From positions 62,001-126,000 of the forward strand of contig NZ_JACOFX010000005.1 in assembly GCF_014284125.1 (NCBI RefSeq): a stretch of 64,000 nt of DNA. The letters run 5' to 3'. Numbering within the stretch: the first letter of the stretch is position 1; each line of letters opens with the position of its first letter. This document shows, piece by piece, positions 17,228 to 52,119 of this stretch. The notes beneath the pieces were generated by a model that worked only from the letters and a program-made list of their open reading frames with translations, made no database searches and was not told where the DNA came from. The position numbers were made by a program, and so were the translations under genes. Origin of the DNA: Undibacterium umbellatum (lineage in GTDB: Bacteria > Pseudomonadota > Gammaproteobacteria > Burkholderiales > Burkholderiaceae_D).

Positions 17228-18401
17228 CACCAGCAAACACCTGTTCTACCTCGCCAGCATTCAAACCATATAGACGGCTGAACAAGCCACCGAGCACTGC
17301 GCGATATTCGTTCAGCACCGGGTAGTCACGGTTCTGGAATAATTTGCCAGCTTCCAGCGCAATTTGTTCCCCGACGATTTGCCCGCCTTTTATACCGCCA
17401 CCCAAGACCCAGTACACCGTGCCATGGCCATGGTCAGTACCGCGTTTGCCATTTTCGCGAAAGGTACGGCCAAATTCACTGATCACCACCACCGTGGTAT
17501 TGCGCCAGGCACTGCCCATTTCAGTACGATAAGCGGCCAGCCCGCGACCGAGTTCTTCAAACTTGACGGCCAGTGTGCCTGTTGCCCCGCCCTGGTTAAC
17601 ATGTGTGTCCCAGCCACCGACATCAATAAAACCCAGTGCGTATTTATCGCGCATGAGTTTGGCGATACGTTGGGCTTCCAGCTCAAAACCTTTGGTCGAG
17701 ATCGCATTGCGATTGGCACTATTCATTTCTTCTGCCATTTCACGCGCCACTTCATCGCGCATGGCAAAGCCATCCTTGACGGCTTGCGACAGATTTGTAT
17801 TGGCATACATTTGCATGATCAACTCACGCTGGCGCTGATCAACATTGGCCTTGCTGACATTGCGCAATGCGGTGTTGGCAATGTGGGCCTGGCCCTGCAT
17901 GGCCAGTGGTAACTGGTCAGTAAAGGACATGGCACTGACTTTGCCGTTATTCCCCAACACTTTCGCCAGGCGATTCAAGAAACCAGAATGGAAATCCCGG
18001 CTGGCATTCAGGGGCTGGCCCATTTCTATACTGTCCTGGGTTTCAAAATGGCTACGCGATAAATCATCTGTTCCAGCAAAGGGGATGAATGCTGCTTCAC
18101 CCTGCTGGAACATGGGATAAATCGTGTCACGCAAGGCCGGATGAAGGCCCCAGTCTGCATTCAGTGCCAGTGCCGCATCCGGTATGGAACCCGGTCTGGC
18201 AATGGCAATATTTGGCCTGGTTTCATAATAGAAGTTGCTGTAAGTAGGCACCAGTAAATTGCTGGCATCATAGCCGCCGCGCAAAAACACCAGCAGCAAA
18301 CGATTTTGAGTGGCTGGTGCCGCCATCACCTGGCTGCTCATTCCCAGCAAGGCAGACGATGGCAGCAGGGCCATTGCTTTCAATAAGTCTCTACGGTTCA
18401 T
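17199..18401 (-). CDS. DUF1501 family protein, Tat-exported
   Basis: 400 residues. The N-terminus MNRRDLLKAMALLPSSALLG carries twin arginines before a hydrophobic stretch, a Tat-type signal ending SQVMAAPA. The body matches DUF1501 (LLLVFLRGGYDASNLLVPT, SRSHFETQDSIEMG, VISEFGRTFRENGKRGTDHG), related to alkaline-phosphatase/sulfatase folds. It is nearly always paired with DUF1800, as here 36 bases downstream of it on the same strand. Biochemical function is not established. Confidence 0.9.
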   Translation of the reverse strand: MNRRDLLKAMALLPSSALLGMSSQVMAAPATQNRLLLVFLRGGYDASNLLVPTYSNFYYETRPNIAIARPGSIPDAALALNADWGLHPALRDTIYPMFQQGEAAFIPFAGTDDLSRSHFETQDSIEMGQPLNASRDFHSGFLNRLAKVLGNNGKVSAMSFTDQLPLAMQGQAHIANTALRNVSKANVDQRQRELIMQMYANTNLSQAVKDGFAMRDEVAREMAEEMNSANRNAISTKGFELEAQRIAKLMRDKYALGFIDVGGWDTHVNQGGATGTLAVKFEELGRGLAAYRTEMGSAWRNTTVVVISEFGRTFRENGKRGTDHGHGTVYWVLGGGIKGGQIVGEQIALEAGKLFQNRDYPVLNEYRAVLGGLFSRLYGLNAGEVEQVFAGVKARDLALL

Positions 18402-30322: not shown

Positions 30323-31024
30323 TCACATGCGTTTTTCCTTGGCCATCTTCTCTATCAAATCCTTCCACAAGCGCACCGTTGATGCGCCGCCCTTGCGGGT
30401 ATTGCCGCTGGCCAGCCATAAGTCATCATCGTTGAAACTGTAGACAGGCACCAGATCAGTCCGGGCTGAGGCGGGCTGTATGTCATCTTCCAGATTGTCC
30501 ATGATCCACGGTTCTGCCGCCGGGCTGGGATAATACGCCAGTACCATATGGGTTTCACCTATGCGCGTCGCCCTGACATAAGTGATGCGCAAACGCTCGG
30601 CTGGTATGCCCAGATCCTTCAGCGTCATGTACTTGGCCACGGCATAGTCTTCGCAATCAGCGCCCCATGAAGCAATCATTTCTACAGGCGTAGCCCAATA
30701 GTCGTTGACACCCCAGTGTTCCTGATCTGTCAGATACGGCACACGATTATAAAAGTCATTCACTTGCCGCAGTACTGCCATCTCATATTGCCCATCGCTA
30801 GAACGCGCAACATTCCTGGCAAAGTCCTTGCCAGCGGCGGCCTTGATCTTGTTGATGGCAACCTGCATTTGCGCCAGGCGGCGCGGCCCCTCCACACCAA
30901 AGCGCTTGCCCGCGGACTCAATCAAGCCAGGCGAAAAATCCACCAGGCCAGATATCACCACCGGGCTGATAAAGCCCAGCAGCACAAACAGACTGGCAGC
31001 GAATTTGGCCGTGCGACTGCGCAT
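30323..31024 (-). CDS. lapG: LapG-like periplasmic transglutaminase-like cysteine protease
   Basis: 233 residues from ATG 31024 (MRSRTAKFAASLFVLLG). An N-terminal signal or anchor helix (about 5-26) precedes the BTLCP fold. Catalytic residues are visible: Cys in SWGADCEDYAVAKY, His in IGETHMVLAYYP and Asp in PWIMDNLEDDI. The acidic cluster around the Cys (DCED) fits the calcium-binding site of LapG. It would cleave the N-terminus of a LapA-type adhesin and be held inactive by LapD. Confidence 0.9.
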   Translation of the reverse strand: MRSRTAKFAASLFVLLGFISPVVISGLVDFSPGLIESAGKRFGVEGPRRLAQMQVAINKIKAAAGKDFARNVARSSDGQYEMAVLRQVNDFYNRVPYLTDQEHWGVNDYWATPVEMIASWGADCEDYAVAKYMTLKDLGIPAERLRITYVRATRIGETHMVLAYYPSPAAEPWIMDNLEDDIQPASARTDLVPVYSFNDDDLWLASGNTRKGGASTVRLWKDLIEKMAKEKRM

Positions 31025-31163
31025 GAGTGGTTGATCTGGTAAGCATGAACAAGAGCAACAGTGTAGCGGTTTATGCTGCACAGATAGGCGCATTTTTGCT
31101 TTTAAAAATTGTCAGATGAAAATTGCTAAAATGCATGCACTTAGCCAGATTAGAGGAAAACCA

Positions 31164-32219
31164 ATGTCAAAAAGTCAAAGCAACTGGATAGATTTGCGCA
31201 GTGACACCGTCACCCGTCCCAGCCCGGCCATGCGTGCCGCCATGCAGGCTGCCGACCTGGGTGATGATGTCTATGGCGATGACCCCAGCGTCAACCGCCT
31301 GCAAGACTATGCTGCCGACTTGTTTGGCTACGAGGCCGCCCTGTTTGCCCCCTCCGGGACACAAAGCAATTTGCTGGCCCTGCTCAGCCATTGCGGGCGC
31401 GGCGATGAATATATTGCCGGGCAAGAGGCCCATACCTATAAATACGAAGGCGGTGGTGCCGCCGTGCTCGGCAGCATACAACCGCAGCCCTTGCAAAACC
31501 AGGCCGATGGTACGATAGCACTGGAAGACATTGCCGCCGCCATCAAGCCTGATGATTTTCATTTTGCCCGCAGCCGTTTGCTGGCGCTGGAAAACACCAT
31601 AGGTGGCAAGGTCTTGCCGATGGAATACACGCGGGCCGCCACCAGCCTGGCCCATCAGCGTGGCCTGGCTACTCACCTGGATGGGGCGCGTATCTGCAAT
31701 GCCATCGTCAAGCTCGGCATCAGTCCCAGAGAGGCGGTCAGGGGTTTTGACAGTGTCTCGGTGTGCCTGTCCAAAGGACTGGGCGCGCCAGTAGGGTCCG
31801 TACTCTGTGGCGACAAGTCACTCATCGCGCAAGCAAGACGCTGGCGCAAGATGCTCGGTGGTGGCATGCGCCAGGCCGGTGGCCTGGCTGCCGCAGCCCA
31901 GTATGCGCTTGAACATAACGTGGCACGCCTGGCAGAAGACCATGCCCATGCCGAACGCCTGGCGCATGGCCTGCGCCAAATCGAGCTTCTCAAAGTACAA
32001 ACACCGCAAACCAATATCGTCTATGCCGACATGCCTGCCGCAGCTTGCGCTGGCCTTGACGGTTTGCTGCGCGAGCACGGCATTCTGGCCAGGGTGACAC
32101 CCCATATGCGCATGGTCACCCACCTGGATGTCAGCGCTGCCGACATCGACAAAGTGCTCACAGTGTTCCAGACATTCTTCAATACCTGGAATGCGCCGAC
32201 CAGCGAGGGCGCAGCATAA
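31164..32219 (+). CDS. ltaE: Low-specificity L-threonine aldolase
   Basis: 351 residues from ATG 31164, behind GAGGAAAACCA. PLP enzyme: IDLRSDTVTRPSPAMRAAM at the start, GDDVYGDDPSVN, HLDGARICNA (Asp that contacts PLP) and SVCLSKGLGAPVGSVLCG with the PLP lysine. It splits L-threonine and L-allo-threonine to glycine and acetaldehyde. Divergent from lapG. The family is close to vertebrate and bacterial LtaE and the length is standard. Confidence 0.93.
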   Translation: MSKSQSNWIDLRSDTVTRPSPAMRAAMQAADLGDDVYGDDPSVNRLQDYAADLFGYEAALFAPSGTQSNLLALLSHCGRGDEYIAGQEAHTYKYEGGGAAVLGSIQPQPLQNQADGTIALEDIAAAIKPDDFHFARSRLLALENTIGGKVLPMEYTRAATSLAHQRGLATHLDGARICNAIVKLGISPREAVRGFDSVSVCLSKGLGAPVGSVLCGDKSLIAQARRWRKMLGGGMRQAGGLAAAAQYALEHNVARLAEDHAHAERLAHGLRQIELLKVQTPQTNIVYADMPAAACAGLDGLLREHGILARVTPHMRMVTHLDVSAADIDKVLTVFQTFFNTWNAPTSEGAA

Positions 32220-32224
32220 GCTGC

Positions 32225-33271
32225 TCACTCCCCTGCATGCATCATGGGGTTGTACAAAACGATGCGCCCTATGTGCAGGCAGGTCTGGTCATCACTGAGC
32301 CTGGCGTTGTCTATGTAGGGCAATTGGTTCAGGTCTTGCCCCAGCTGACTTTGCGGATAGGTGAGCCTGGCAATGACATTGAACAGACTCAGGCATTGAT
32401 GCAGAAGCCGACTGTGCTCATGCCGGGCTGGCAGCAATTTTTCCAGGCAAAATCCCAGCATGTTTTTCTCAAGCGCCTGCCCGGTTTTTTGTTTTGCATT
32501 CATCGGGAAAATGACACTATCCTTGTTGCTGCAATTGGTAATCGTTTGCAGCCAACTGTGATTGGCGGCATCATAGACAATGCGGCAGCTTAGTATGTCG
32601 CCAGGCGCGACTGCCATATACGGGCCACCAAAGCAGGTTTGCTCTGCCTGTAGTTTTCCACCCGCATGAACATATTGCCCGCACACCCACCAACCCCCTT
32701 GCGCAAACGGGTGTTCAGAAACTTCATCGGTGACCTCATGGGGCGGACAATAACAAAGCACAGCCTGCAAACCGCCACCTTGCAATTCAGCGCCATGCGC
32801 CTGGCCAGGCAGAAGGCAAGGCCAGAGATAAGCATGGGCTTGTGTACTGCTCAAAAAAGGCACCTGCATATGCGCCTGTATGCTGACCCAATGATTGCCC
32901 GGCGCGGCGGTGATGCTAAAACGGCTGCCCGGTGCAGCAGGTTTTTCAAAACTGTCTGCCCCGGCTTCTGCCACCAGAACAGGCGTGCCAGAAAAAAACA
33001 CCACATCACCCGCATGCAAGACCTGGTGACGGCACATGATGGCGTAATGTTTGACATAAAAGAAAAAAGTGATACGGTCATCCGCCGCTGCAAAAGACTT
33101 GGCTTCTGCCAGCGTCATGCAAGTCTTGCGACAAATTTCCAGTTCCCAGTTGGCATCACCATGCACAGCCATGCCCATGATCCTTTGCCATTGCAGTCCA
33201 GGTTCTTCTGGCGCAAATGCAAGCAGAGGATCTTCTTCATGCGGAACGAGCAGCGTTTGTTCTTTCATCAT
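32225..33271 (-). CDS. Hypothetical protein, last gene of the sigma54 operon
   Basis: 348 residues from the ATG at 33271 (MMKEQTLLVPHEEDPLLAFA); a second ATG follows at once. An 85-residue in-frame extension is rejected because it runs into a TG-repeat tract and overlaps the next gene. The sequence is Trp/His/Cys-rich without signal peptide or membrane helix (for example LEICRKTCMTLAEAKSF, ICGQYVHAGGKLQ-type strands and SWLQTITNCSNKDSVIF). It looks like a beta-rich globular protein. No family recognised. Follows two other unknown genes in the divergent operon of the FHA regulator. Confidence 0.65.
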   Translation of the reverse strand: MMKEQTLLVPHEEDPLLAFAPEEPGLQWQRIMGMAVHGDANWELEICRKTCMTLAEAKSFAAADDRITFFFYVKHYAIMCRHQVLHAGDVVFFSGTPVLVAEAGADSFEKPAAPGSRFSITAAPGNHWVSIQAHMQVPFLSSTQAHAYLWPCLLPGQAHGAELQGGGLQAVLCYCPPHEVTDEVSEHPFAQGGWWVCGQYVHAGGKLQAEQTCFGGPYMAVAPGDILSCRIVYDAANHSWLQTITNCSNKDSVIFPMNAKQKTGQALEKNMLGFCLEKLLPARHEHSRLLHQCLSLFNVIARLTYPQSQLGQDLNQLPYIDNARLSDDQTCLHIGRIVLYNPMMHAGE

Positions 33272-33297
33272 AGGTGATCCTGAATTCTCATGGCTCT

Positions 33298-33342
33298 GGG
33301 TTGTGTGTGCTGCTGTGTGCTGTAATGTGTGTGGTGTGCAGT
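33298..33342. repeat. TG-rich low-complexity tract
   Basis: Irregular TGTGTG/GCTG units between two minus-strand genes, next to the stop of the 100-residue hypothetical gene. Such tracts can vary in length by slippage. Confidence 0.5.
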
Positions 33343-33644
33343 TATATGCCGTTATTACGATCGTCACCCTTACGGCGCTGGTAGTTTGCTGCCCTGGCCA
33401 GCCTGGCCGGGTCCAGTCGCCTGTCTGTCTTGCGCCTGTCAAAACCATTTCTGGCCATACCATACAAAGTACGAAAAGTATCCAGTGCTGCCGCCTCTTC
33501 TGCCTCAGTCGGTATGCGTTCGCCAAACAGATTGGCTTGCAATCTCAGCATGGGTGGCAGGCAATCCTGGTACAAATCAAAGTCACCAACCGGGTCAAGC
33601 TTCAATAACATGTCTGCAGTCGTGTATGGCTGTGCGGGCTTCAT
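33342..33644 (-). CDS. Small hypothetical protein in the sigma54 operon
   Basis: 100 residues from ATG 33644, behind CAGGAGTTATCT. Sequence MKPAQPYTTADMLLKLDP, then a helical region (LFGERIPTEAEEAAALDTFR) and a strongly basic C-terminus (NGFDRRKTDRRLDPARL, NYQRRKGDDR). The basic tail could contact nucleic acid or phosphoprotein. No domain recognised. It sits 46 bases after the membrane-protein gene and is probably on the same transcript. Confidence 0.65.
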   Translation of the reverse strand: MKPAQPYTTADMLLKLDPVGDFDLYQDCLPPMLRLQANLFGERIPTEAEEAAALDTFRTLYGMARNGFDRRKTDRRLDPARLARAANYQRRKGDDRNNGI

Positions 33645-33690
33645 AGATAACTCCTGAAATACGGTTGGCATGCTTCAGTGCTCCAGATAT

Positions 33691-34266
33691 TTAAAAGGCA
33701 GCGCGCTGCATCATCCCCATTTCCAGCAAGTCTTGCGCAGTCTTGCCAGGCTTGAGTACCAGTTTGCGTGCAGGTTTTTCTTTGACCACGTCCACAGCCA
33801 CTACCGCAGTCGCTTCTACTGCAACTTCTACTGCAACTTCTGCCGCAGCTTCAGGCTGCGTTTCCTGCTTCAGGCTTACTGTGGTAGACCAGGGTGTGTC
33901 TTTCGAAGCCCAGGTCGTGGCCCATAAGGCATACGGCACTTCCAGCACCGACGGTGCGGCTTCTGGCAAAGGGCGCAGGCGCATGTGGGTAGATGTGTGG
34001 ACTGCCGCAAACCAGGCCACTTGCGGGTCTTGCTTGCGTGTTGCAGGGATTTTGGCGATGCTGCTGATCCGGACGCGGCCGCAAGACAATTTGGCGCTCT
34101 CCATATTTTTTTGTATCAGCACGCCACGGGTTTCATGGTAATACACGTCATCGGTCAGCAAACGCATGGCTATGTTGCGGGCCAGCCTGGCTTTCAGCGC
34201 CATTTTGCTGAGCAGCATGAACAACAGCAGATTAAGTACAGCAAGCAAGATTTGAGTGGTTGGCAT
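33691..34266 (-). CDS. Small membrane-anchored hypothetical protein, first gene of the sigma54 operon
   Basis: 191 residues from ATG 34266 behind GAAGGAGAGAATC. One N-terminal membrane helix (TQILLAVLNLLLFMLLSKMA), a globular part (KLSCGRVRISSIAKI, HTSTHMRLRPLPEA) and an Ala/Val/Glu repeat (EAAAEVAVEVAVEATAVVAV), ending KPARKLVLKPGKTAQDLLEMG. Faces the cytoplasm or periplasm depending on topology, which I cannot settle. Directly controlled by the sigma54 promoter at 34319-34335. No family recognised. Confidence 0.68.
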   Translation of the reverse strand: MPTTQILLAVLNLLLFMLLSKMALKARLARNIAMRLLTDDVYYHETRGVLIQKNMESAKLSCGRVRISSIAKIPATRKQDPQVAWFAAVHTSTHMRLRPLPEAAPSVLEVPYALWATTWASKDTPWSTTVSLKQETQPEAAAEVAVEVAVEATAVVAVDVVKEKPARKLVLKPGKTAQDLLEMGMMQRAAF

Positions 34267-34318
34267 GATTCTCTCCTTCAGATGGCAAGCAGGTTCACTT
34301 GCGCTATGCATGTCTATT

Positions 34319-34335
34319 TGCAAAGCCCGTGCCAG
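34319..34335 (-). promoter_or_regulatory. Sigma54 promoter of the divergent unknown operon
   Basis: Minus strand CTGGCACGGGCTTTGCA agrees with YTGGCACGRNNNTTGCW at every defined position. The -24 GG and -12 GC are 12 bases apart. Predicted start is near 34308, about 40 bases before the ATG at 34266. The adjacent divergent gene encodes a sigma54 activator. Confidence 0.88.
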
Positions 34336-34374
34336 CATCGTTTCCCTAGGGAGAGAAGGTTTTTTCGACCACAA

Positions 34375-34403
34375 TTGACATGTAAAGCATACAAATTTAC
34401 ATT
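34375..34403 (+). promoter_or_regulatory. Sigma70-type promoter of the FHA-sigma54 activator gene
   Basis: TTGACA (34375-34380), 17-base spacer, TACATT (34398-34403). The box overlaps ACATGTAAA/TTTACAT motifs that recur before the kinase gene near 38901-38940. Confidence 0.65.
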
Positions 34404-34476
34404 GGCGCTTTACACTGTCGCTTACATTCAAGTACCAGCTAAGTTTCAGCTAAGTTCCAGCTTCACCGCAAACACA

Positions 34477-36003
34477 ATGACCGATACCGACTACACCCTG
34501 ACCTCACCCCTGGCCAAGCTGGCCGACAATGCCTCGGCCCTGCTGGGCCTGACCATCATCTGGCATCCAGACAGCCAGCGCATAGGTGAACAGTTCATGG
34601 CCAGCAACCCTGATGGCCAGGTTGAGATCAATCGCTTCTTGCCGCTGTTCCGTCACCCCGGCAAAGACGGCCTGCCGCTGGGCTATGGCGGCATCTCGCG
34701 TGACCCCGTTCGTATCAGCCGCGATGGGTATGACAATATCCTCATCACGCCACCAACCAGCCGCATGGTGGTCGAGGTCAATGGGGAAGAGATCAATGCA
34801 CCTGTGGCCTTAAACCGTGAACAACTGGAAGCAGGCGTCATCCTTGGCCTGGGCCGCGCCATCATCATCTGCCTGCACTGGATGCGCTGCCTGCCTAAGC
34901 ACAATCCTGCCCTTGGTTTCATCGGCGTAGGCAGTGCCGCCATCGTCGCCCGCGACCAGATACGCCAGGTCGCCGGGACTGAGCTGCCGGTCCTGCTGCT
35001 GGGTGAAACTGGCACAGGCAAAGAAATCGCCGCCCGCGCCATTCATGCCTATAGCAAGCGAGCTAGTGCAGAGCTGGTCAGTGTCAACATGGCCGCTTTG
35101 AATGAAGCCCTGGCGGCGGCTGATTTGTTTGGTGCCGTCAAAGGTGCCTACACAGGCGCACAAAACGCCCGCAAAGGCCTGTTCGCCGAGGCAGAAGGCG
35201 CAACGCTTTTCCTTGATGAGATAGGCAATACCCCGGGCAGCATACAACCCATGCTCTTGCGCGTACTGGAGAGTGGCGATTACCGCCCGCTCGGTGCTCA
35301 GCAAGACCAGAAATCCAGCGCCCGCCTGATAGCCGCGACTGACCAGGATTTATATAGCGAAGGCTTCAACCAGGCCCTGCTGCGTCGCCTGGAAAGCTTC
35401 ATCATCCACCTGCCACCGTTACGCGCCCGCCGTGAAGATATAGGCGTCTTGCTGCTGCACCTGCTCAGCACCAGCAAACTGTCGAACGAAATAGGCACCA
35501 GCCTGCCAGTGGCACTGGTCAGCGAATTTGCCAATTACGACTGGCCAGGCAATATCCGCCAGTTGGCCCACGTCCTGCGCCGCGCTCTGCTGGCCCTGCA
35601 ACTGGGTGAAGTGCCACAACTCGCCAGCCTGGTCAAAACCACGCACAAAGCTCCATCCAGCGTGGCACAAGCCAGCATAGTCACAGACAGCAAATTTCCG
35701 CAGCCAGCCAGCCCCCGCAAAAAACTGGCCGAGCTCAGTGACGACGATGTTTTACGCGCGATGGAAAACAATGACTGGTACATACAGGGCGCAGCGCAAG
35801 AGCTTGGTGTCTCGCGCCCATCCATGTACAAGCTGCTCGACAACCACAGCCAGATACGCCGCGCCGAACAGATACCCACAGAAGAAATTCGCCAGTCACT
35901 GGAAACCAGTGCTGGCGATGTAGAGGCTTGCGCCGCCTTATTAAAAACGCCTAGTGAGGCTTTGAGGCGGTATTTGAAGTTGGTAGAGATTAAGAAGGAT
36001 TAG
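34477..36003 (+). CDS. FHA-domain sigma54-dependent transcriptional activator
   Basis: 508 residues from ATG 34477; the long upstream in-frame extension runs through the divergent promoter and is rejected. An FHA-like domain occupies about 25-135 (GGISRDPVRISRDGYDNILI, then TSRMVVEVNGEEIN). The AAA+ domain has Walker A GETGTGKE (176-183), GAYTGA (223-228, Tyr replacing the usual Phe of GAFTGA), Walker B TLFLDE (243-248) and LLRRLESFIIHLPPLRARRED. A Fis-type helix-turn-helix (IQGAAQELGVSRPSMYKLLD) lies near 440-460, followed by about 45 further residues. FHA domains bind phosphothreonine, so the input is probably a Ser/Thr kinase, and one is encoded 2.7 kb away. It should drive the divergent sigma54 operon. 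Confidence 0.9.
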   Translation: MTDTDYTLTSPLAKLADNASALLGLTIIWHPDSQRIGEQFMASNPDGQVEINRFLPLFRHPGKDGLPLGYGGISRDPVRISRDGYDNILITPPTSRMVVEVNGEEINAPVALNREQLEAGVILGLGRAIIICLHWMRCLPKHNPALGFIGVGSAAIVARDQIRQVAGTELPVLLLGETGTGKEIAARAIHAYSKRASAELVSVNMAALNEALAAADLFGAVKGAYTGAQNARKGLFAEAEGATLFLDEIGNTPGSIQPMLLRVLESGDYRPLGAQQDQKSSARLIAATDQDLYSEGFNQALLRRLESFIIHLPPLRARREDIGVLLLHLLSTSKLSNEIGTSLPVALVSEFANYDWPGNIRQLAHVLRRALLALQLGEVPQLASLVKTTHKAPSSVAQASIVTDSKFPQPASPRKKLAELSDDDVLRAMENNDWYIQGAAQELGVSRPSMYKLLDNHSQIRRAEQIPTEEIRQSLETSAGDVEACAALLKTPSEALRRYLKLVEIKKD

Positions 36004-36410
36004 CCTCCGGACCCTACGTCGCATTCAGGATCCCATTTGACCACCACACCTGGGTTTGTTAATGAAGATATGAAGGAACCTTGAATTCTCCATTTTTCAG
36101 TCTGTGTTGTCGTATTACCCAAAGCCACTGTGAAATTGTTAGTGTTGTCTAAGTTGTAAGTGTAAGCACCATCAGGAAATGGACCTCCACCATTTTGAAC
36201 AGGACTTGCTGAAATCTGGCTATTGTTTATTACGGATGAATTTTCACCTTGTGCAATACCGTGACTGACAAAATTATATTGATAACTAATTGAATCACCA
36301 TCAGCAAAATCTGGTACGCCATTTAAAGTCAGAGGTGGAATTGGACTAAGAAACTCACCAACGGCATTGCCCCGGCGGTCATAATTGATCATAAAAACGT
36401 AAGTTGCCAA
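36000..36410 (-). CDS. Small AT-rich hypothetical protein
   Basis: 136 residues from a TTG start (MATYVFMINYDRRGNAVGEF) placed 7 bases after AAGGAG; an internal ATG six codons on is an alternative. The sequence is rich in Asn, Ser and Thr with alternating strands (YTYNLDNTNNFTVALGN, TTTQTEKWRIQGSF, VVVKWDPECD), suggesting a small beta-sandwich. No signal peptide. Base composition is AT-richer than neighbours. Its 3' end overlaps the activator gene end by four bases. Product is unknown; a structural or effector role cannot be told from sequence. Confidence 0.62.
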   Translation of the reverse strand: MATYVFMINYDRRGNAVGEFLSPIPPLTLNGVPDFADGDSISYQYNFVSHGIAQGENSSVINNSQISASPVQNGGGPFPDGAYTYNLDNTNNFTVALGNTTTQTEKWRIQGSFISSLTNPGVVVKWDPECDVGSGG

Positions 36411-36432
36411 GTTTTTTCTCCTTGTTGATTAG

Positions 36433-36460
36433 AAGGTGCAAGTTGCTTAGCTTGCACCTT
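36433..36460. repeat. 10-bp inverted repeat upstream of the small hypothetical gene
   Basis: AAGGTGCAAG and CTTGCACCTT flank an 8-base spacer. It lies in the leader of the TTG-started gene and downstream of the kinase stop, so it may be an operator, a processing hairpin or an attenuator. Confidence 0.55.
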
Positions 36461-36526
36461 TCATGGGTAAAATGCTTATTTCGAAATTCACGATCTTCTA
36501 CAATAGAAAATCACGCAAGCAATCCT

Positions 36527-38740
36527 CTACTTTTTTTTGTAGAGAGCGTCACGCCTTAAAGCAAGTAAATCAGGTTCTGCTTCAATTAACTTCACCGGAT
36601 ATCCTAATTCCAGAGCTTTGTGTATAGCATCCAGCGCCAGTGGTCTGTTGTCTAGCAATTCATATGCCAGACCAGCCCGAAAATGAATGTCGCCACTTTT
36701 AGGAGCTAACTCAATTGAATGTTTTATCAATTCTTCCGATTTACTTTTATTCCCAACTCTTGCTGAATAAAGGCCCATACGTGACATCAATGTGACATCG
36801 TTTGGAGAACGGTCCAATCTAGGTTGCAGGAGTTCTATTGCTTTGGCATAGGCAGTTTGCGCTTCAACTTTCCGACTTGGAATCCATAGGAGGGTATCTG
36901 CTAAATTAGCCCAACCAAAGTAATTGTTTGGGTTCCCTTTATCGTTAGATACAGCTTGTTGGAAGGCTTCTACGGCTGCTAAATAATCTCCTTTTATGAA
37001 CAGAGCATTTCCAAGATTTGTGTACAAAGCAGCGCTTGGTCGTATTTGTAATCCTTGCTGCAGAATTGTCAGTGCCTCATCATTGCGATTTAATCTTAGA
37101 AGTGCAGCATTTAGATTTGCGTATGGTTGTACTGCATCAGGTTCCATCTTTATTCCTAATCGGAATACCTTTTCCGCACCCTCGTAATCACCTTTTAGAT
37201 ACTTTGCAGTGCCTAGTTCACTGGCGAATACTGAATTATGCGGAAATTTTTGAATCCCAAGCTCTGCGAAATTTATTGCCTCATCGAATCGACGAGCTTT
37301 TCTTAGTACGGTAGTCTTTATGAACCAGGCGAAGTAGTTTTCTGGATCTAATACCAGTGCCCGTTCTAAATCAGCAAAGGCTTGATCGTGGGCATCCTTT
37401 CTCGAAGTTGCTGCCCCCCGGGCGACATAGCTCAATGCTAATTGCCCATTCATTTTGACGGCTTGCTGAGCACTTGCATCTGCTTTTTGCAACCAAATTT
37501 CGTCTTGCCCGTCTGTGGTATAGCGAAAACTGTACACCAGCGATAAACCTGCTACTGCTGCTGCGCTATTTGCATCGTGCTTTAAGATCGTTTCAAAATA
37601 CTGTGTAGCCTTGTCCAGACTGCCAGGCCTATCAAACTGCTTTAATGCTTCCAAGCCTTGCTTCATAGTCAATGATTCGGAGTAAGGCTTCAACGACATT
37701 TTGTCAATTTCAAGATAAGGCGTAGCCTGCCAGGCGACATATCCCAGAGCGATAATGGCAGCAATGACGATGGCAAAGCGTTTCGGCTTGCTCAGCGCCT
37801 TCCATCCTTTGCCTGAAATGCTGCTTACATTCCCAGCAACACCTGTTGCCACTAGTGCTGGCACACTCATCAACCCACGCAATTGTTCATGCACTTGCTG
37901 CATACTGTTCAGACGTTTCTCAGTCTGCCGCGCCGTCATTGCCAGCACCAGCTTGATCAGTTCTGGCTTACATCCTGCCGGAAATTCCCAGGTGTCGGAA
38001 TTCGATTGCATGAGGGCGGCGGCCAGGGCCAGGCCGCTGGCGTTGGCGAAGGGACGTTGGCCCGTCAGGGTTTCGTAGAGGATGACGCCGAGGGCGTAGA
38101 TGTCGCTCTGGGCGTTGGCCGGGCTGCCCATCATGCGTTCCGGGGCCATGTAGGCTATGGTGCCTTGCGGGTCGAGCTGGCTCATGGACGTGGTGGCCTG
38201 GGCATCGGTTTGGGATGCCAGGCCAAAGTCGAGTATGCGTACTTTGCCGTTGGGTTCCACCATGAGGTTGGATGGTTTCAGGTCGCCGTGAATGAGGCCG
38301 CTGGCATGGGCCTCTTGCATGGCTTCGGCGACCTGGCTGATGATGTTGATGGCTTGCTGTTCTGGCAATGGCTGCTGCGGGTGTTGTTGCAGCAGTTGTT
38401 TTAGTGTCAGGCCGGGCACCAGTTCCATGACGATGGAATGGCTATTGTCTTCTTCTTCAATGGCGAATATCTTGACGAAGGCGGGGTGCTTCAATGATGC
38501 CGCCAAGCGGGCTTCCTTGAGCAGGCTGGTGGTCTGGATTGTGCTTCCTGAGCTTTCCGTGCCCGCTATGACTTTGAGCTGTTTGATGGCGACAGGGCGG
38601 CAGAGTTTGCTGTCCCAGGCTTCATGGACTTGCCCAAAGCCACCTTCACCCAGACGCTTTTTGAATTCGTAATGTCTGAGACTGACGCTTTCTTCTTCTG
38701 TTTTTGTATTGTCGTTGCTAGCCAGATTGGTATTTTGCAT
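36527..38740 (-). CDS. Ser/Thr protein kinase with membrane helix and C-terminal TPR domain
   Basis: 737 residues. PknB-type kinase domain at about 25-290: GEGGFGQV (31-38), VAIK (Lys53), HGDLKPSN with catalytic Asp153 (the HRD Arg is Gly, a non-RD kinase), DFG (171-173) and APE (199-201). One membrane helix (FAIVIAAIIALGYVAW, about 325-341) and about eight TPR units outside it (LNRNDEALTILQQGL, KGDYLAAVEAFQQAV and more). Activation is therefore likely to be triggered by ligands or partners on the TPR side. The kinase-domain DNA is GC-rich and the TPR half is AT-rich. The neighbouring FHA activator is the obvious candidate substrate reader. Confidence 0.9.
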   Translation of the reverse strand: MQNTNLASNDNTKTEEESVSLRHYEFKKRLGEGGFGQVHEAWDSKLCRPVAIKQLKVIAGTESSGSTIQTTSLLKEARLAASLKHPAFVKIFAIEEEDNSHSIVMELVPGLTLKQLLQQHPQQPLPEQQAINIISQVAEAMQEAHASGLIHGDLKPSNLMVEPNGKVRILDFGLASQTDAQATTSMSQLDPQGTIAYMAPERMMGSPANAQSDIYALGVILYETLTGQRPFANASGLALAAALMQSNSDTWEFPAGCKPELIKLVLAMTARQTEKRLNSMQQVHEQLRGLMSVPALVATGVAGNVSSISGKGWKALSKPKRFAIVIAAIIALGYVAWQATPYLEIDKMSLKPYSESLTMKQGLEALKQFDRPGSLDKATQYFETILKHDANSAAAVAGLSLVYSFRYTTDGQDEIWLQKADASAQQAVKMNGQLALSYVARGAATSRKDAHDQAFADLERALVLDPENYFAWFIKTTVLRKARRFDEAINFAELGIQKFPHNSVFASELGTAKYLKGDYEGAEKVFRLGIKMEPDAVQPYANLNAALLRLNRNDEALTILQQGLQIRPSAALYTNLGNALFIKGDYLAAVEAFQQAVSNDKGNPNNYFGWANLADTLLWIPSRKVEAQTAYAKAIELLQPRLDRSPNDVTLMSRMGLYSARVGNKSKSEELIKHSIELAPKSGDIHFRAGLAYELLDNRPLALDAIHKALELGYPVKLIEAEPDLLALRRDALYKKK

Positions 38741-38900
38741 TGGTTTCTTGCATGGTTATTATTTTTTATGCCGCATTGGGTTACACGCAGCTATCTGTCC
38801 ACGCAAGATAGTTGCTGGTCGTAACAAGATGTAACGGCAATAATATAGCGAACTTTATTACAAAACTGTGTACTCACAGTGACAAGCCAAGCTATTTTAT

Positions 38901-38940
38901 ATGTAAATGACATGTCAATTGACAGTAATTTACATGTAAA
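38901..38940. promoter_or_regulatory. Palindrome cluster upstream of the kinase gene
   Basis: Three overlapping or adjacent perfect palindromes: TGACATGTCA (38908-38917), TGTCAATTGACA (38913-38924) and TTTACATGTAAA (38929-38940), with ATGTAAAT/ATTTACAT flanking pairs. They lie 160-200 bases before the kinase start. The CAATTGACATGT element is also in the promoter of the FHA activator at 34373-34384. Candidate operators for a shared regulator. Confidence 0.6.
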
Positions 38941-38986
38941 AAGCTGCTAGGTCCAAATGGGCTGGCGAGCGGGAAGATGAAGGCTT

Positions 38987-39574
38987 TTAGTCAGGTTTGA
39001 TGATGCTGACTTGCCCTTTTAGCATTTCTATCAATTCGGCTTCAAAATTGCTGGCGAGTTTTTGCTTGATGCTGATGCTGATGGTGGTGGATTCTGTATA
39101 GGCCAGCTCGGTGACGCTGGCGGCAAACTTGTCGCACAGGCGGCGTACATGGGATTCGTCGGCATAGGCGCAGGTGATGTCCCAGTCAACCATGTATTCC
39201 ACTTCTGTCAGTTCGGCCACCTTGAAGGCATCTGAAATGGCCTGGCCATAGGCGCGCGTCAGGCCGCCTGCACCGAGCTTGGTGCCGCCCCAGTAGCGCA
39301 CAACCACGGCCAGCACATTGGTCACGTCCTTGTGTACCAGCACGTTGTACATGGGCTTGGCAGCGGTGCCTGAAGGTTCGCCATCGTCATCCAGGCCAGA
39401 GTCGCCAGTGCAGATCAGCGCCCAGCAGACGTGGACGGCATCCGGGTGCTGCGCCCGTATCTGTGCCAGTTGCTGGCGTGCTTCGGCGCGGCTGTTGAGT
39501 GGGTATAGCTGGCCCAGGAAACGGCTTTTCTTGATTTCTATTTCGGCAAAAGCAGGGGCGACAAGCTGGTACAT
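38987..39574 (-). CDS. YigZ/IMPACT family protein
   Basis: 195 residues. UPF0029 N-terminal domain with [34 protein letters not shown] and [20 protein letters not shown], the defining motifs, followed by a small ferredoxin-like C-terminal domain. Members resemble the eukaryotic IMPACT translation regulator and bacterial YigZ; molecular role is not settled. Divergent from the deo operon. Confidence 0.9.
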
Positions 39575-39741
39575 GGGGTGCTGGATGGGGCAAAACCGCT
39601 ATTTTGGCGGCTAATTGGGTCTGGGTATACATAAACTGTATTGCCCGTATTCTGAGCATAGTCTTGATGTCTGATGTATATCAAGCATTGCCATCCACAT
39701 GCGCCGTATCTTTAACGTTTGTTTTTACCGGAGCAAGTACC

Positions 39742-40524
39742 ATGTCTTCTACCCCAGATACGGCTTTGAAGCAGGCTGCCAGCCGCGCTCTGCGCCTGAT
39801 GGATTTGACCAGCCTGAATGAGGATGACAGCAGGGAAAAGATCACGGCCTTGTGTAATGCTGCCAGCAGTGAGCAAGGGCAGGTGGCGGCGCTGTGCATT
39901 TACCCGCGCTTCATTCCGCATGCAAAAAAGATACTGCTTGAATTTGGTACGCCAGCCATCAAAGTGGCGACGGTGGTTAATTTTCCGTATGGTGAGGCAG
40001 ACGTAGAGGTCGCAGTGGCCGAGACCAGGGCAGCCATTGCCTATGGTGCAGACGAGGTGGACCTGGTTTTCCCTTATGCCGCGCTGATGGCGGGTGACAC
40101 CAGCACCGGGGCAGAGATGGTCAGGGCTTGCAAGACAGCTTGCGGCGACAAGCTCTTGAAGGTGATCATAGAAAGTGGCGAGCTAAAGACGGATGCCTTT
40201 ATCCGCGCCGCCAGCTTGATAGCAATCACGGCAGGGGCAGACTTTATCAAGACTTCTACCGGCAAGGTGGCAGTCAATGCCACGCTGGCAGCGGCAGAAA
40301 CCATGCTGACAGTGATCAAGGAAACCGGTGGTCATTGTGGCTTCAAGGCCGCAGGCGGGGTCAGGACGGCGGCAGAAGCCGCAGCCTATCTGGCACTGGC
40401 GGATAACATCATGGGGCCAGATTGGGTGAGCCCTGCGCATTTTCGTTTTGGTGCTTCCAGCCTCTTGAGTAATTTGCAGGCTTGCCTGCGCGATGTACCG
40501 GCACAGATCAAGGCAGGCTACTGA
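39742..40524 (+). CDS. deoC: Deoxyribose-phosphate aldolase
   Basis: 260 residues from ATG 39742 behind CCGGAGCAAGTACC. DeoC motifs: VCIYPRF-like [47 protein letters not shown] and [14 protein letters not shown] with the Schiff-base lysine in KTSTGK. The enzyme cleaves 2-deoxyribose-5-phosphate to glyceraldehyde-3-phosphate and acetaldehyde. First gene of a tightly packed deoC-deoA-deoD operon. Confidence 0.95.
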
Positions 40525-50715: not shown

Positions 50716-52119
50716 ATGCCAGTAGCATTAACAAACCAACGTATCCTGATCATAGATGATGACAGCTCAGTGCTGGTGTCGCTGGCCTTGCTGTTGAAGC
50801 AAGCTGGTTATGCCAGCGTCAGTTGTGATGACCCGCAACAGGCCATGCAAGTACTGGCAACGCAGGAAATACACCTGGTTTTACAGGACATGAATTTTTC
50901 TTTGCAGACCACGGGTGAAGAAGGCCTGGCTTTATTGGCCGATATCAAACGCCTTTATCCAGCCTTGCCAGTGTTGCTGATGACGGCCTGGGGCTCGATT
51001 GCCCTGGCCGTGCGCGGCGTCAAACTGGGGGCAGCAGATTTTTTTACCAAACCCTGGAATAACACATCTTTGCTGGAGCTGATACGCGCTACGCTGGATA
51101 TGGCGCAAGTCGCCATGCCTGCAAATACAAACCGTCAGGCGCTGGACCAGCAGTTCAATTTCAGTGACATTATCGGCGAACATTCAGAATTGCTAAAGGT
51201 ATTGGCGACCATAGGCCGGGTCGCCAGAACCAATGCCTCGGTACTGATTTTGGGTGAGAGTGGCACAGGCAAGGAATTGATCGCCGATGCCATTCATCGC
51301 AACAGCCCGCGCGCCAGCAAGCCCATCGTCAAGGTAAATATGGGAGCGGTGACGACAAGCTTGTTTGAAAGTGAAATGTTTGGTCATGTCCGCGGTGCAT
51401 TTACCGACGCCAAGAGTGATCGTAAAGGGCATTTTGCCATGGCCAGCCAGGGTAGTTTATTCCTGGATGAAATCGGTGAATTGAACCGCAATGACCAGGT
51501 GAAATTACTGCGGGTATTGCAAAACCAAAGCTATCAGGCGGTGGGTGCCAGCAAGACTGAGCATGCCGATGTACGCATCATCTCGGCCACCAACTGCGAA
51601 CTGGCAGAACTGGTCGCCAGCAATGAATTTCGCGAAGACCTGTATTACCGTCTGAACCTGATCACCATACGTCTGCCGCCTTTGCGTGAACGCCGTTGTG
51701 ATATTCCCTTGCTGGCAAACCGCCTGGTGGCTGCACTGGTGAATAGCTACGGCATGGAGCCAGTCAGTCTTGCCCCTTCTGCATTGCAATGGCTGGGCAG
51801 CAGGACCTGGCCCGGCAATATACGCCAGCTCAAACAATGTCTGGAACGCACTCTGCTCCTGGTGGGCAAGCCTGTACTGGAGCAAAACGATTTCCTGTTT
51901 GCCGAGCAGCACGAAGAAGCGCAAGGGCAGGGTATGAGCATCGCTGGCATGACGCTCGACCAGGTAGAAAAGTTGATGATAGAAAAAGCCATGGAGCAAT
52001 ATCAGGGCAATATCACCCGCGTGGCCAAGGCTTTGGGCCTCAGTAGATTTTCCCTGTATCGCAGGCTGGAAAAACATCAGATTAACATCAATGAACTGGA
52101 TGATGGGGAGCAGCGATGA
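50716..52119 (+). CDS. NtrC-family sigma54-dependent response regulator
   Basis: 467 residues. Receiver with Asp58 in LVLQDMNFSL, an AAA+ domain with Walker A GESGTGKE (180-187), the sigma54-contact loop GAFTDA (227-232, where GAFTGA is usual), Walker B SLFLDE (247-252), LYYRLNLITIRLPPLRER and a Fis helix-turn-helix at the C-terminus (NITRVAKALGLSRFSLYRRL). It probably activates the operon in front of it. The GAFTDA variant may alter sigma54 contact. Confidence 0.9.
   Translation: MPVALTNQRILIIDDDSSVLVSLALLLKQAGYASVSCDDPQQAMQVLATQEIHLVLQDMNFSLQTTGEEGLALLADIKRLYPALPVLLMTAWGSIALAVRGVKLGAADFFTKPWNNTSLLELIRATLDMAQVAMPANTNRQALDQQFNFSDIIGEHSELLKVLATIGRVARTNASVLILGESGTGKELIADAIHRNSPRASKPIVKVNMGAVTTSLFESEMFGHVRGAFTDAKSDRKGHFAMASQGSLFLDEIGELNRNDQVKLLRVLQNQSYQAVGASKTEHADVRIISATNCELAELVASNEFREDLYYRLNLITIRLPPLRERRCDIPLLANRLVAALVNSYGMEPVSLAPSALQWLGSRTWPGNIRQLKQCLERTLLLVGKPVLEQNDFLFAEQHEEAQGQGMSIAGMTLDQVEKLMIEKAMEQYQGNITRVAKALGLSRFSLYRRLEKHQININELDDGEQR

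Follow-up and report, generated by a model that had tools for sequence, protein, structure and literature searches.

Sigma54 enhancer-binding proteins that carry an FHA domain are reportedly found in Myxococcus xanthus, in work by Jelsbak and colleagues from 2005, and these resemble the protein considered here in combining an FHA fold, an AAA+ sigma54 activator domain and an HTH, with an implied Ser/Thr kinase input. The kinase PknG, which is soluble, controls an enzyme inhibitor. An excerpted account (PMC8546545) describes PknG as a TPR-domain kinase that phosphorylates the FHA protein OdhI near its N-terminus (Thr14), and the PknG-GarA/OdhI system of actinobacteria is similar to the arrangement proposed here in having a TPR-bearing Ser/Thr kinase and a small FHA substrate phosphorylated near the N-terminus. 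In the T6SS threonine phosphorylation pathway, as outlined in a section of PMC10482370, the Ser/Thr kinase PpkA likewise acts on an FHA protein, Fha1; there an injection machine is controlled post-translationally, whereas we propose sigma54 transcriptional control.

The locus described here lies in a window of 64,000 nucleotides from Undibacterium umbellatum. Six ORFs (32225-38740) and a perfect -24/-12 site (34334-34319) are present where the first-pass annotation had placed them. A possible distinction from the M. xanthus FHA set is that the present loci pair the activator in a fixed way with one TPR kinase and a small DPE-tailed beta-protein, with variable sigma54 outputs and, in some genomes, double-glycine peptides. 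All counts were taken over related genomes. Genes were called with a greedy longest-ORF script, so that a portion of the calls in GC-rich genomes is incorrect.

Comparison of the loci in relatives separates a fixed unit, made up of the activator, the kinase and the P0005 gene, from the three-gene operon, which is the variable part. As judged from sequence, a unit of membrane kinase, FHA-fold sigma54 activator and small beta-rich protein is conserved in environmental relatives of Undibacterium beside changing target genes. An activator was called at 65 loci, and at 51 of these the kinase is convergent with it and no more than 8 kb away; the close linkage of the two extends across related genera. 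Several of the other 14 stop at a contig edge, and at L156 and L158 the kinase is on the same strand. The beta-protein is found in 38 of the 51 activator-kinase loci, and 10 of the 13 without it belong to the loci, in Undibacterium and relatives, whose divergent gene is LodB-like. The P0005 gene, labelled a small orphan at first pass, is instead the third conserved member of the unit and has a sigma54-like site to itself. At four Undibacterium loci the gap between activator and kinase holds a 140-aa gene that falls outside the P0005 family, which by eye we read as putatively thioesterase-like. Structured RNA was discounted, as no Rfam family reached its gathering score within 31000-40000.

Activator and kinase

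The activator P0004 (508 aa, 34477-36003, forward strand) is assigned from Pfam, AF2 and Foldseek, and conservation a disordered N-terminal tail, a divergent FHA fold (approximately residues 20-140), an AAA+ domain with a GAYTGA loop and a Fis-type HTH. It matches Sigma54_activat in Pfam (E 6.2e-49) together with an AAA lid and HTH_8, and the last of these, slightly above its cut-off (E 4.1e-5, 23.6 bits against 22), identifies the HTH as Fis-type and DNA-binding. The Walker sequence GETGTGK and the GAYTGA loop, in which Tyr replaces the Phe of GAFTGA, are invariant in 20 aligned activator orthologues, as befits an AAA+ domain. The AAA+ domain, the HTH and the -24/-12 target support the prediction that P0004 is a sigma54 enhancer-binding protein.

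The Pfam FHA profile PF00498 has no match in P0004 at E<=1 and gave a single match among six orthologue N-termini (E 0.19), which at 12.6 bits stays below the cut-off of 20.7. When an AF2 model (mean pLDDT 65.5) was compared with the PDB using Foldseek, ranks 1-21 were all FHA proteins, with a best E of 1.4e-3 and none below 1e-3; 18 of these are FHA proteins by title, and EmbR and two KLP-6 chains we take to be so. Structure prediction, and not Pfam, thus supports a divergent FHA fold, and with the Sigma54_activat match it bears out the earlier description of an FHA-type sigma54 activator.

The FHA residues that contact phosphothreonine are Arg, Ser and Asn. Matching the pocket by eye to the canonical FHA motifs places Arg53 in 64 of 64 activators and Ser74 in 60 of 66, with Arg75 also nearly invariant; the canonical Asn position is Met97 in 59 of 65, and the His of SxxH is absent. 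The earlier statement that the FHA domain reads phosphothreonine agrees with the retained Arg53 and Ser74 and not with Met97, and we infer such reading by P0004 with caution because the pocket is non-canonical. The tail ahead of the fold holds the motif D-x-T-x-T-S-P-L (codons 5-12, 34489-34512, forward strand), a candidate phosphorylation site at Thr7/Thr9 with Leu at the +3 position of Thr9. Conservation is high at Thr7 (62 of 64 activators), Thr/Ser9 (59 of 64) and Asp/Glu5 (61 of 64), and [DE]-x-T-x-T lies within residues 1-18, for which the AF2 pLDDT is below 50.

The kinase P0006 (737 aa, 36527-38740, reverse strand), whose orthologues also lie beside the activator, matches Pkinase (E 2.6e-52) and TPRs in Pfam, with the kinase domain at 24-285 and the TPR region C-terminal. 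Its catalytic motifs are intact (VAIK50, HGDLK151, DFG171, APE199), as in Hanks-type Ser/Thr kinases. A single TM candidate at 322-340, between the kinase domain and the TPRs, sets it apart from the PknG type, which is soluble with TPRs and no TM segment; a further difference from PknG is that FHA is here fused to a sigma54 activator. The TM threshold was passed by 43 of 56 kinase sequences and the Lys/Arg excess is on the kinase side in all 43, which suggests that the kinase domain is inside and the TPR region outside the membrane. RRNPP receptors are cytoplasmic TPR proteins that bind a re-imported peptide; the TPR region of the present kinase is predicted by this positive-inside count to be external.

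Sigma54 promoters, candidate enhancer and divergent genes

The operon divergent from the activator is on the reverse strand and encodes P0001 (191 aa, 33691-34266), with an N-terminal TM candidate at 6-24, and P0002 (100 aa, 33342-33644) and P0003 (348 aa, 32225-33271), both without a TM candidate. None of the three matches Pfam or NCBIfam, in keeping with the first-pass view that the output products belong to no recognised family. PADLOC gave one noise-level match to the three (P0001, E 0.031), and a known family for P0003 was dropped after a profile search of the PDB found nothing. A 95-aa protein encoded at the corresponding divergent position in L054 shares a short stretch of similarity with P0001 (19 aa, 53%). 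Of 43 genomes of the genus, 7 have P0003, beside the activator in all 7, which upholds the proposed linkage of the operon to activator and kinase and argues against the operon as a constant part of the island; P0001 is restricted to a few genomes of Undibacterium, a narrower range than that of the widespread activator and kinase. Divergent outputs vary by species and include flavoenzymes such as the flavin amine oxidase of L114, a MACPF protein (L125), an ATPase and many products without a known family.

The -24/-12 sigma54 promoter of the operon, TGGCACGGGCTTTGCA (34319-34334, reverse strand), matches every defined position and is conserved in relatives. Two occurrences of the strict pattern were counted in the window, where chance would give 0.38. 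Across the 65 activator loci, which are related and so do not represent 65 independent events, the divergent site is perfect in 21 and has at most one mismatch in 35, compared with shuffle means of 0.12 and 1.15, opposite-strand counts of 1 and 2, and 3 and 8 among 584 other called ORFs at the same loci. The promoter is therefore conserved above all of these controls, and in the genomes searched we saw neither of the outcomes that the first-pass annotation had named as evidence against the proposed island and that genome comparison can address, namely a lost promoter match in close homologues or operon homologues lacking both kinase and activator.

The second strict occurrence, TGGCATATGAATTGCT (36654-36669, reverse strand), lies inside the 3' end of the kinase gene, upstream of P0005. 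Of 40 P0005-type genes, 14 have an upstream site with at most one mismatch, compared with a mean of 0.51 in shuffles and 0 on the opposite strand; the other 26 have no such site. Where the kinase contains the peptide AYELL, the full site is spelled by synonymous codons in 12 of 26 cases, whereas the codon usage of the individual genes predicts 0.25, which rules out protein-level constraint alone as its source. No kinase gene (0 of 49) has an upstream site with at most one mismatch, and sigma54 control of the kinase gene was dropped. A looser pattern gives 24 one-mismatch matches across the window, and these, with the position of the P0005 site in coding sequence, could suggest that the promoter matches are artefacts of chance or coding constraint; we consider this extremely improbable, as the shuffle, opposite-strand and other-gene controls rule out chance for the divergent promoter and the synonymous-codon test also stands against it.

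A candidate upstream activating site, TTGACATGTAAA (34375-34386), with the palindrome CATGTAAA/TTTACATG, is approximately 45 bp upstream of the -24 element, and the palindromic sites TTTACATGTAAA, TTGACATGTCA and TTTACATATAA (38896-38940) are upstream of the kinase. The candidate enhancer CATGTAAA occurs upstream of both activator and kinase, at 1.08 per kb upstream of kinases against 0.045 elsewhere; it was chosen from the activator-upstream regions in which it was also scored, so that its presence upstream of kinases is the sole separate check. Near the P0005 promoter it is at background density (0.032 per kb), and in the window 3 were found against 2.63 by chance, so only the placement is notable.

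The beta-protein family and the double-glycine peptides

P0005 (136 aa, TTG start, 36000-36410, reverse strand), encoded directly downstream of the kinase, is an all-beta protein with the tail WDPECDVGSGG and belongs to a family of beta-proteins that end in a D-P-E tail. The 40 genes of this type were collected with a filter that admitted D/N, P/L/Q and E/D/R only at the three places, because of which the invariance of D and E in the family alignment is partly selected for; the alignment left out 5 of the 40 (L123, L125, L130, L144 and L150). Several tails have no Ser/Thr at the place of the P0005 Ser, for example PEVDVEVGGGGG and PECEVGAGA. At L052 and L053 there is a 146-aa gene with a sigma54-like site that ends in DPV instead of DPE, and the P0005-family profile does not match it (0 in G014 and G016). 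A Shiga-like-B Pfam match to P0005 (E 0.06) scored 13.8 bits, short of its cut-off of 27, and is regarded as noise. When the P0005 model was searched with Foldseek, the PixA structure 4pib (E 6.9e-4, prob 0.99), of the PixA/AidA inclusion-body family (PF12306), ranked first, with 4lzk also listed; in contrast, the model superposes weakly on PixA (TM 0.38/0.32, rmsd 16.6). Membership by sequence was ruled out, as PF12306 matched none of 35 P0005-family members at E<=1 and a PDB profile search did not find PixA. A genome search with PF12306 (0 of 60) says nothing on absence because no control genome matched either.

In seven genomes there are tiny double-glycine peptides that end in the tail of the P0005 family, and one core, at L046, is identical to the P0005 tail PECDVGSGG. 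In three genomes (G034, G026 and G004) 8-10 peptide genes with a GG leader, such as LTDSEVLGVAGG, adjoin a C39 exporter, with HlyD genes also adjacent, as for GG-leader/C39 bacteriocins and peptide pheromones. Unlike those, the core PE-x-[DEQH]-[VI] is very short, is repeated in many small genes and is common to the tail of a folded protein. Most cores have 9-13 residues, and they are acidic and rich in glycine. As far as the literature was searched, a DPE tail common to a folded protein and tiny export-peptide families appears to be undescribed. Most loci, including that in the window, have no peptide genes; the GG-PE pattern has 0 matches in the window genome, whose two C39 matches are on other contigs. 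The match between tail and core of the same locus was reached by 21 of 5040 permutations, with seven loci only, several of them closely related. The best core for the L114 and L115 tails is that of L146, and the G026 tail is fitted better by G034 and G004 cores than by its own.

A proposed phosphorylation switch

Building on the linkage, promoter conservation, codon-level constraint, FHA fold, tail motif and shared tail seen in these sequences, we favour, with moderate confidence, a self-contained Ser/Thr-phosphorylation switch. The kinase would phosphorylate Thr7/Thr9 in the flexible N-terminal tail of the activator, the FHA domain would bind the phospho-tail of its own or a neighbouring protomer, and its AAA+ domain would thereby be licensed to open sigma54 promoters. 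The divergent operon (P0001-P0003 here, other genes elsewhere) and the P0005 gene would be the direct targets; in some relatives the latter gene is followed by double-glycine peptides that share the DPE tail. We infer the phosphorylation, FHA binding, activation and topology, as well as every function of the beta-protein, peptides and outputs.

The first-pass scheme ran from the kinase through a phosphoprotein to the FHA activator and sigma54. The linkage of its parts and the promoter stand, but since a conserved [DE]-x-T-x-T lies in the disordered tail of the activator itself, no separate phosphoprotein has to be invoked. FHA domains usually bind other proteins, and such a phosphoprotein could be P0005, encoded directly 3' of the kinase with a Ser in its tail, or P0001, and would control the activator by docking on its FHA domain; position 7 is also Ser/Thr in 25 of the 33 peptide cores. 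Given the beta-protein tails without Ser/Thr there, the narrow distribution of P0001 and the T-x-T already in the activator, we think this unlikely. The non-canonical pocket and negative FHA profile would instead suit a phospho-independent scaffold or autoinhibitory domain, with the kinase co-inherited and acting elsewhere, yet the near-invariance of Arg53, Ser74, Arg75 and the T-x-T tail and the strict convergent linkage of kinase and activator make this quite unlikely.

The switch could also serve antagonism, driving bacteriocin-like peptides and other weapons, with the DPE-tailed beta-protein as immunity, carrier or decoy. The C39 and HlyD genes, class V lanthipeptide-like genes that six genomes have in the kinase cluster, and the MACPF and flavin amine oxidase outputs would fit, but the cores are judged unlike pore-forming bacteriocins, most loci lack peptide genes and many outputs have no known family, and we hold this to be improbable. 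Equally doubtful is a Gram-negative peptide circuit in which DPE/PEVDV-tailed peptides, exported through GG/C39 or borne on P0005-type tails, would be sensed by the extracytoplasmic TPR region of the kinase, which would act through the activator tail, FHA and sigma54 to yield more DPE-tailed product and a species-specific output.

Ser/Thr kinase inputs to FHA-type sigma54 activators are rarely known. The whole path is testable here in an environmental bacterium that is harmless, because kinase, activator, promoter, candidate enhancer and candidate phosphosite adjoin and are conserved over several genera. The variable output genes offer a route to new effector families by position and, if the DPE-tailed peptides are signals, the sensing of secreted peptides in this manner would be new for Gram-negative bacteria.

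Distribution of the locus and its divergent outputs

All six ORFs and the perfect -24/-12 site of the first-pass annotation were confirmed in the window, which belongs to a 6.46 Mb genome (G000) of the genus Undibacterium. The locus is flanked by ordinary genes, on one side for a beta-eliminating lyase, a transglutaminase-like protease and an EAL/GGDEF protein and on the other for UPF0029, DeoC and a glycosyl-transferase-family-3 enzyme. The N-terminus of the sigma54 activator (P0004, 34477-36003, +) is 97% identical to that of U. pigrum DSM 19792, the closest named relative in that region, and orthologues of at least 59% identity occur in 29 of 43 Undibacterium genomes (22/36 in a first set and 7/7 in a second, where that of genome G063 lies in two frames). 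For this split gene (locus L181, 8880-10480), and for locus L120 with its fragmented activator and kinase, sequencing error and real loss are indistinguishable.

A scan of named genomes with an alignment of the N-terminus gave at least 77 activator loci, those listed coming from Undibacterium, Massilia, Duganella, Pseudoduganella, Janthinobacterium, Herbaspirillum, Glaciimonas, Rugamonas, Telluria, Cellvibrio, Ideonella and some MAGs. Our own gene calls placed an activator ORF of more than 250 bits in 65 of the 77 listed loci. The TPR-bearing membrane Ser/Thr kinase (P0006, 38740-36527, - in the window) is convergent with the activator within 8 kb in 51/65; some of the remaining 14 lie at the end of a contig, and the kinase of L156 and of L158 is instead on the same strand as the activator.

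On the strand divergent from the activator a perfect -24/-12 site is present in 21/65 loci, and one with at most one mismatch in 35/65, against 0.12 and 1.15 respectively in dinucleotide shuffles, 1 and 2 on the opposite strand, and 3 and 8 before the other called ORFs of the same loci (n=584). As a known-type positive control, the scan recovered a perfect site in L057 (11564-15765) before an RtcB-like gene, named by eye, which adjoins an RtcR-like activator, with RtcA (PF01137) also there. The gene behind the divergent promoter varies from locus to locus. In seven Undibacterium genomes it is the P0001-P0003 operon (34266 to 32225, -, behind the site at 34334-34319 in the window), and the proposed association of operon and activator was borne out, P0003 lying beside the activator in 7/7 genus copies. 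Among 300 genomes drawn from the order no P0003 was found beyond the Undibacterium copies; a single partial 30% match lies away from the activator, in G065. Elsewhere the output is a LodB-like flavoprotein (NF038171, E 3.6e-87, under its cut-off), a flavin amine oxidase in Massilia sp. Root418 (two mismatches), a MACPF protein in Duganella flavida (L125:7851-9881, -; PF01823, E 2e-20; one mismatch), an AAA_16-like ATPase just below the Pfam cut-off in M. phosphatilytica (perfect site) or, in several cases, a protein of no family.

The window contains a further perfect TGGCAC-N5-TTGC match at 17930-17944 (+), antisense within the ORF at 17199-18401 (-), which may be chance. Some 15 kb away from P0004 it also encodes another sigma54 activator, this one of response-regulator type (50716-52119, +; Response_reg E 9.6e-21, Sigma54_activat E 1.8e-64). 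Perfect sites at L050:9356-9371 (+) and L053:5305-5320 (-) precede a 7TM-DISM/GGDEF gene that adjoins the kinase, the family of this gene (c30) being assigned from L050, and suggest a cyclic-di-GMP branch in some species. Six loci with the LodB-like divergent gene, from Undibacterium and related genomes (L059, L060 and L062-L065), have kinase clusters with lanthipeptide-type genes. In L064 these are an LxmK-like phosphotransferase (NF038156, E 3e-24, under its cut-off), HopA1 (PF17914, 2.5e-40) and a LanC-like protein (PF05147, 1.3e-61), and four of the six encode a Cys/Ser/Thr-rich repeat protein (GPTSSECTQTCET-like). The set resembles a class V lanthipeptide cluster linked to this kinase-activator switch; enzymes of that class are already known (PMC9486802).

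The activator N-terminus, the kinase and a candidate enhancer

In its C-terminal part the activator is a typical sigma54 AAA+ protein that carries a GAYTGA loop. The N-terminal 140 residues of P0004 have no Pfam family match, and of six orthologue N-termini a single one gave a Pfam FHA hit, at E 0.19. An AF2 model built from 19 sequences (pLDDT 65.5, pTM 0.66) was compared with the PDB using Foldseek. Because FHA proteins fill the first 21 places (best E 1.4e-3), the FHA call is right in fold, though the domain is divergent. Among the aligned activators Arg53 (64/64), Ser74 (60/66) and Arg75 (65/66) are kept, and the position read as the canonical FHA Asn is Met97 in 59/65. The first residues, predicted to be disordered and followed by a variable stretch, carry a [DE]-x-T-x-T motif in which Thr7 (62/64), Thr/Ser9 (59/64), the acidic residue 5 (61/64) and, further on, Leu12 (48/64) are conserved. 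The analogy with OdhI and other FHA proteins that a TPR-bearing kinase phosphorylates near the N-terminus (PMC8546545) makes this tail the likely kinase site and FHA ligand.

None of the catalytic motifs is missing from the kinase, which has a candidate transmembrane segment at 322-340. The transmembrane threshold is passed by 43/56 kinase sequences, and since all 43 are more positively charged on the kinase side the TPR region is probably outside the membrane. No enrichment of sigma54 sites was found at the kinase gene. The palindrome TTTACATGTAAA/CATGTAAA, a candidate upstream activating site, lies upstream of the activator in 25/60 loci against 0.7 in block-shuffled sequence, at a density of 3.89 per kb against 0.045 elsewhere. 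Its density is 1.08 per kb upstream of the kinase (8/48 loci) and 0.032 per kb, with no enrichment, in the activator-kinase gap. The window has three copies of CATGTAAA against 2.63 expected, all upstream of the activator or the kinase.

DPE-tailed proteins and double-glycine peptides

P0005 (36410-36000, -), a small beta-rich protein, is not the orphan it was first taken for, as a gene of its type lies directly 3' of the kinase, on the same strand, in 38/51 activator-kinase loci. Ten of the other 13 have the LodB-like divergent gene, the rest being L120 (broken), L124 and L152. The 35 aligned members are 16-24% identical to P0005, except one at 51%; D127 and E129 never vary and P128 and W107 hardly do, although the filter used to collect the members favours DPE. 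A profile search of the 43 genus genomes found a single copy in each of 13, with 12 at the activator locus and that of G018 on a contig fragment where its place cannot be told. The family has no Pfam match; the AF2 model is all-beta (pLDDT 76.9), with PixA as top PDB match but a poor superposition. The P0005-type proteins of L144 and L150 each carry two copies of the tail motif (PEGEVGSGVSPP twice; PESEVGGGVAP twice), so that, by its sequence, the tail resembles a module that can be repeated.

A site with at most one mismatch lies upstream of 14/40 P0005-type genes (0.51 in shuffles, 0 on the opposite strand). In the window (36669-36654) and 11 other loci it is written in the conserved AYELL codons of the kinase, the full site being present in 12/26 AYELL kinases, where the codon usage of these genes would predict 0.25. 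In L091 and L094 the site is intergenic instead and the AYELL site codons are not kept.

Between activator and kinase, U. pigrum (G034), G026 and U. hunanense (G004) carry 9, 10 and 8 double-glycine-leader peptide genes, mostly in one tandem array with one or two directly 3' of the P0005-type gene; genes for a C39-peptidase ABC transporter (PF03412, E 1.2e-36) and HlyD lie between them. U. crateris (G012), Massilia Root418, Root351 and Pseudoduganella aquatica encode one or two such peptides each. When the 77 listed loci were scanned independently for the leader alone, 25 ORFs were obtained. Of these, 22 have a P-E core and sit between activator and kinase in the orientation of the kinase; one of the exceptions is a P0005-type tail (L107), and those of L120 and L151 are unrelated frames. 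The leader-core junction DNA pattern has 25 matches in 3/43 genus genomes, all at the activator-kinase locus, with no match in G000 and none for its reversed control in the 43 genomes. Throughout the 33 cores there is P1, E2, an acidic residue, Q or H at 4 and V/I at 5, a pattern partly selected by the first search, and Ser/Thr is at position 7 in 25/33. The C-terminal end of P0005, PECDVGSGG, is exactly one U. pigrum core. No sigma54-like site was found before the main tandem arrays.

A possible signalling route and its known parts

The best-supported mechanism would run from the kinase to the activator N-tail, from there to the FHA domain and on to sigma54. Its input might be DPE-type peptides sensed by the outer TPR domain of the kinase, a reading that would account for the presence of exporter and peptide genes and for the topology of the TPR region. 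Most loci, however, among them that of the window, yielded no peptide gene, and there the folded DPE protein alone would have to serve.

FHA-type sigma54 activators are reportedly known in Myxococcus. PknG-OdhI is a known TPR-kinase/FHA-protein pair and PpkA-Fha1 a known Ser/Thr kinase/FHA pair (PMC8546545 and PMC10482370, respectively). Parts related to this locus are thus known one by one, and no description of their combination was found in the open-licence papers searched. The conserved unit is the kinase, the activator and the DPE protein, and the outputs are exchangeable.
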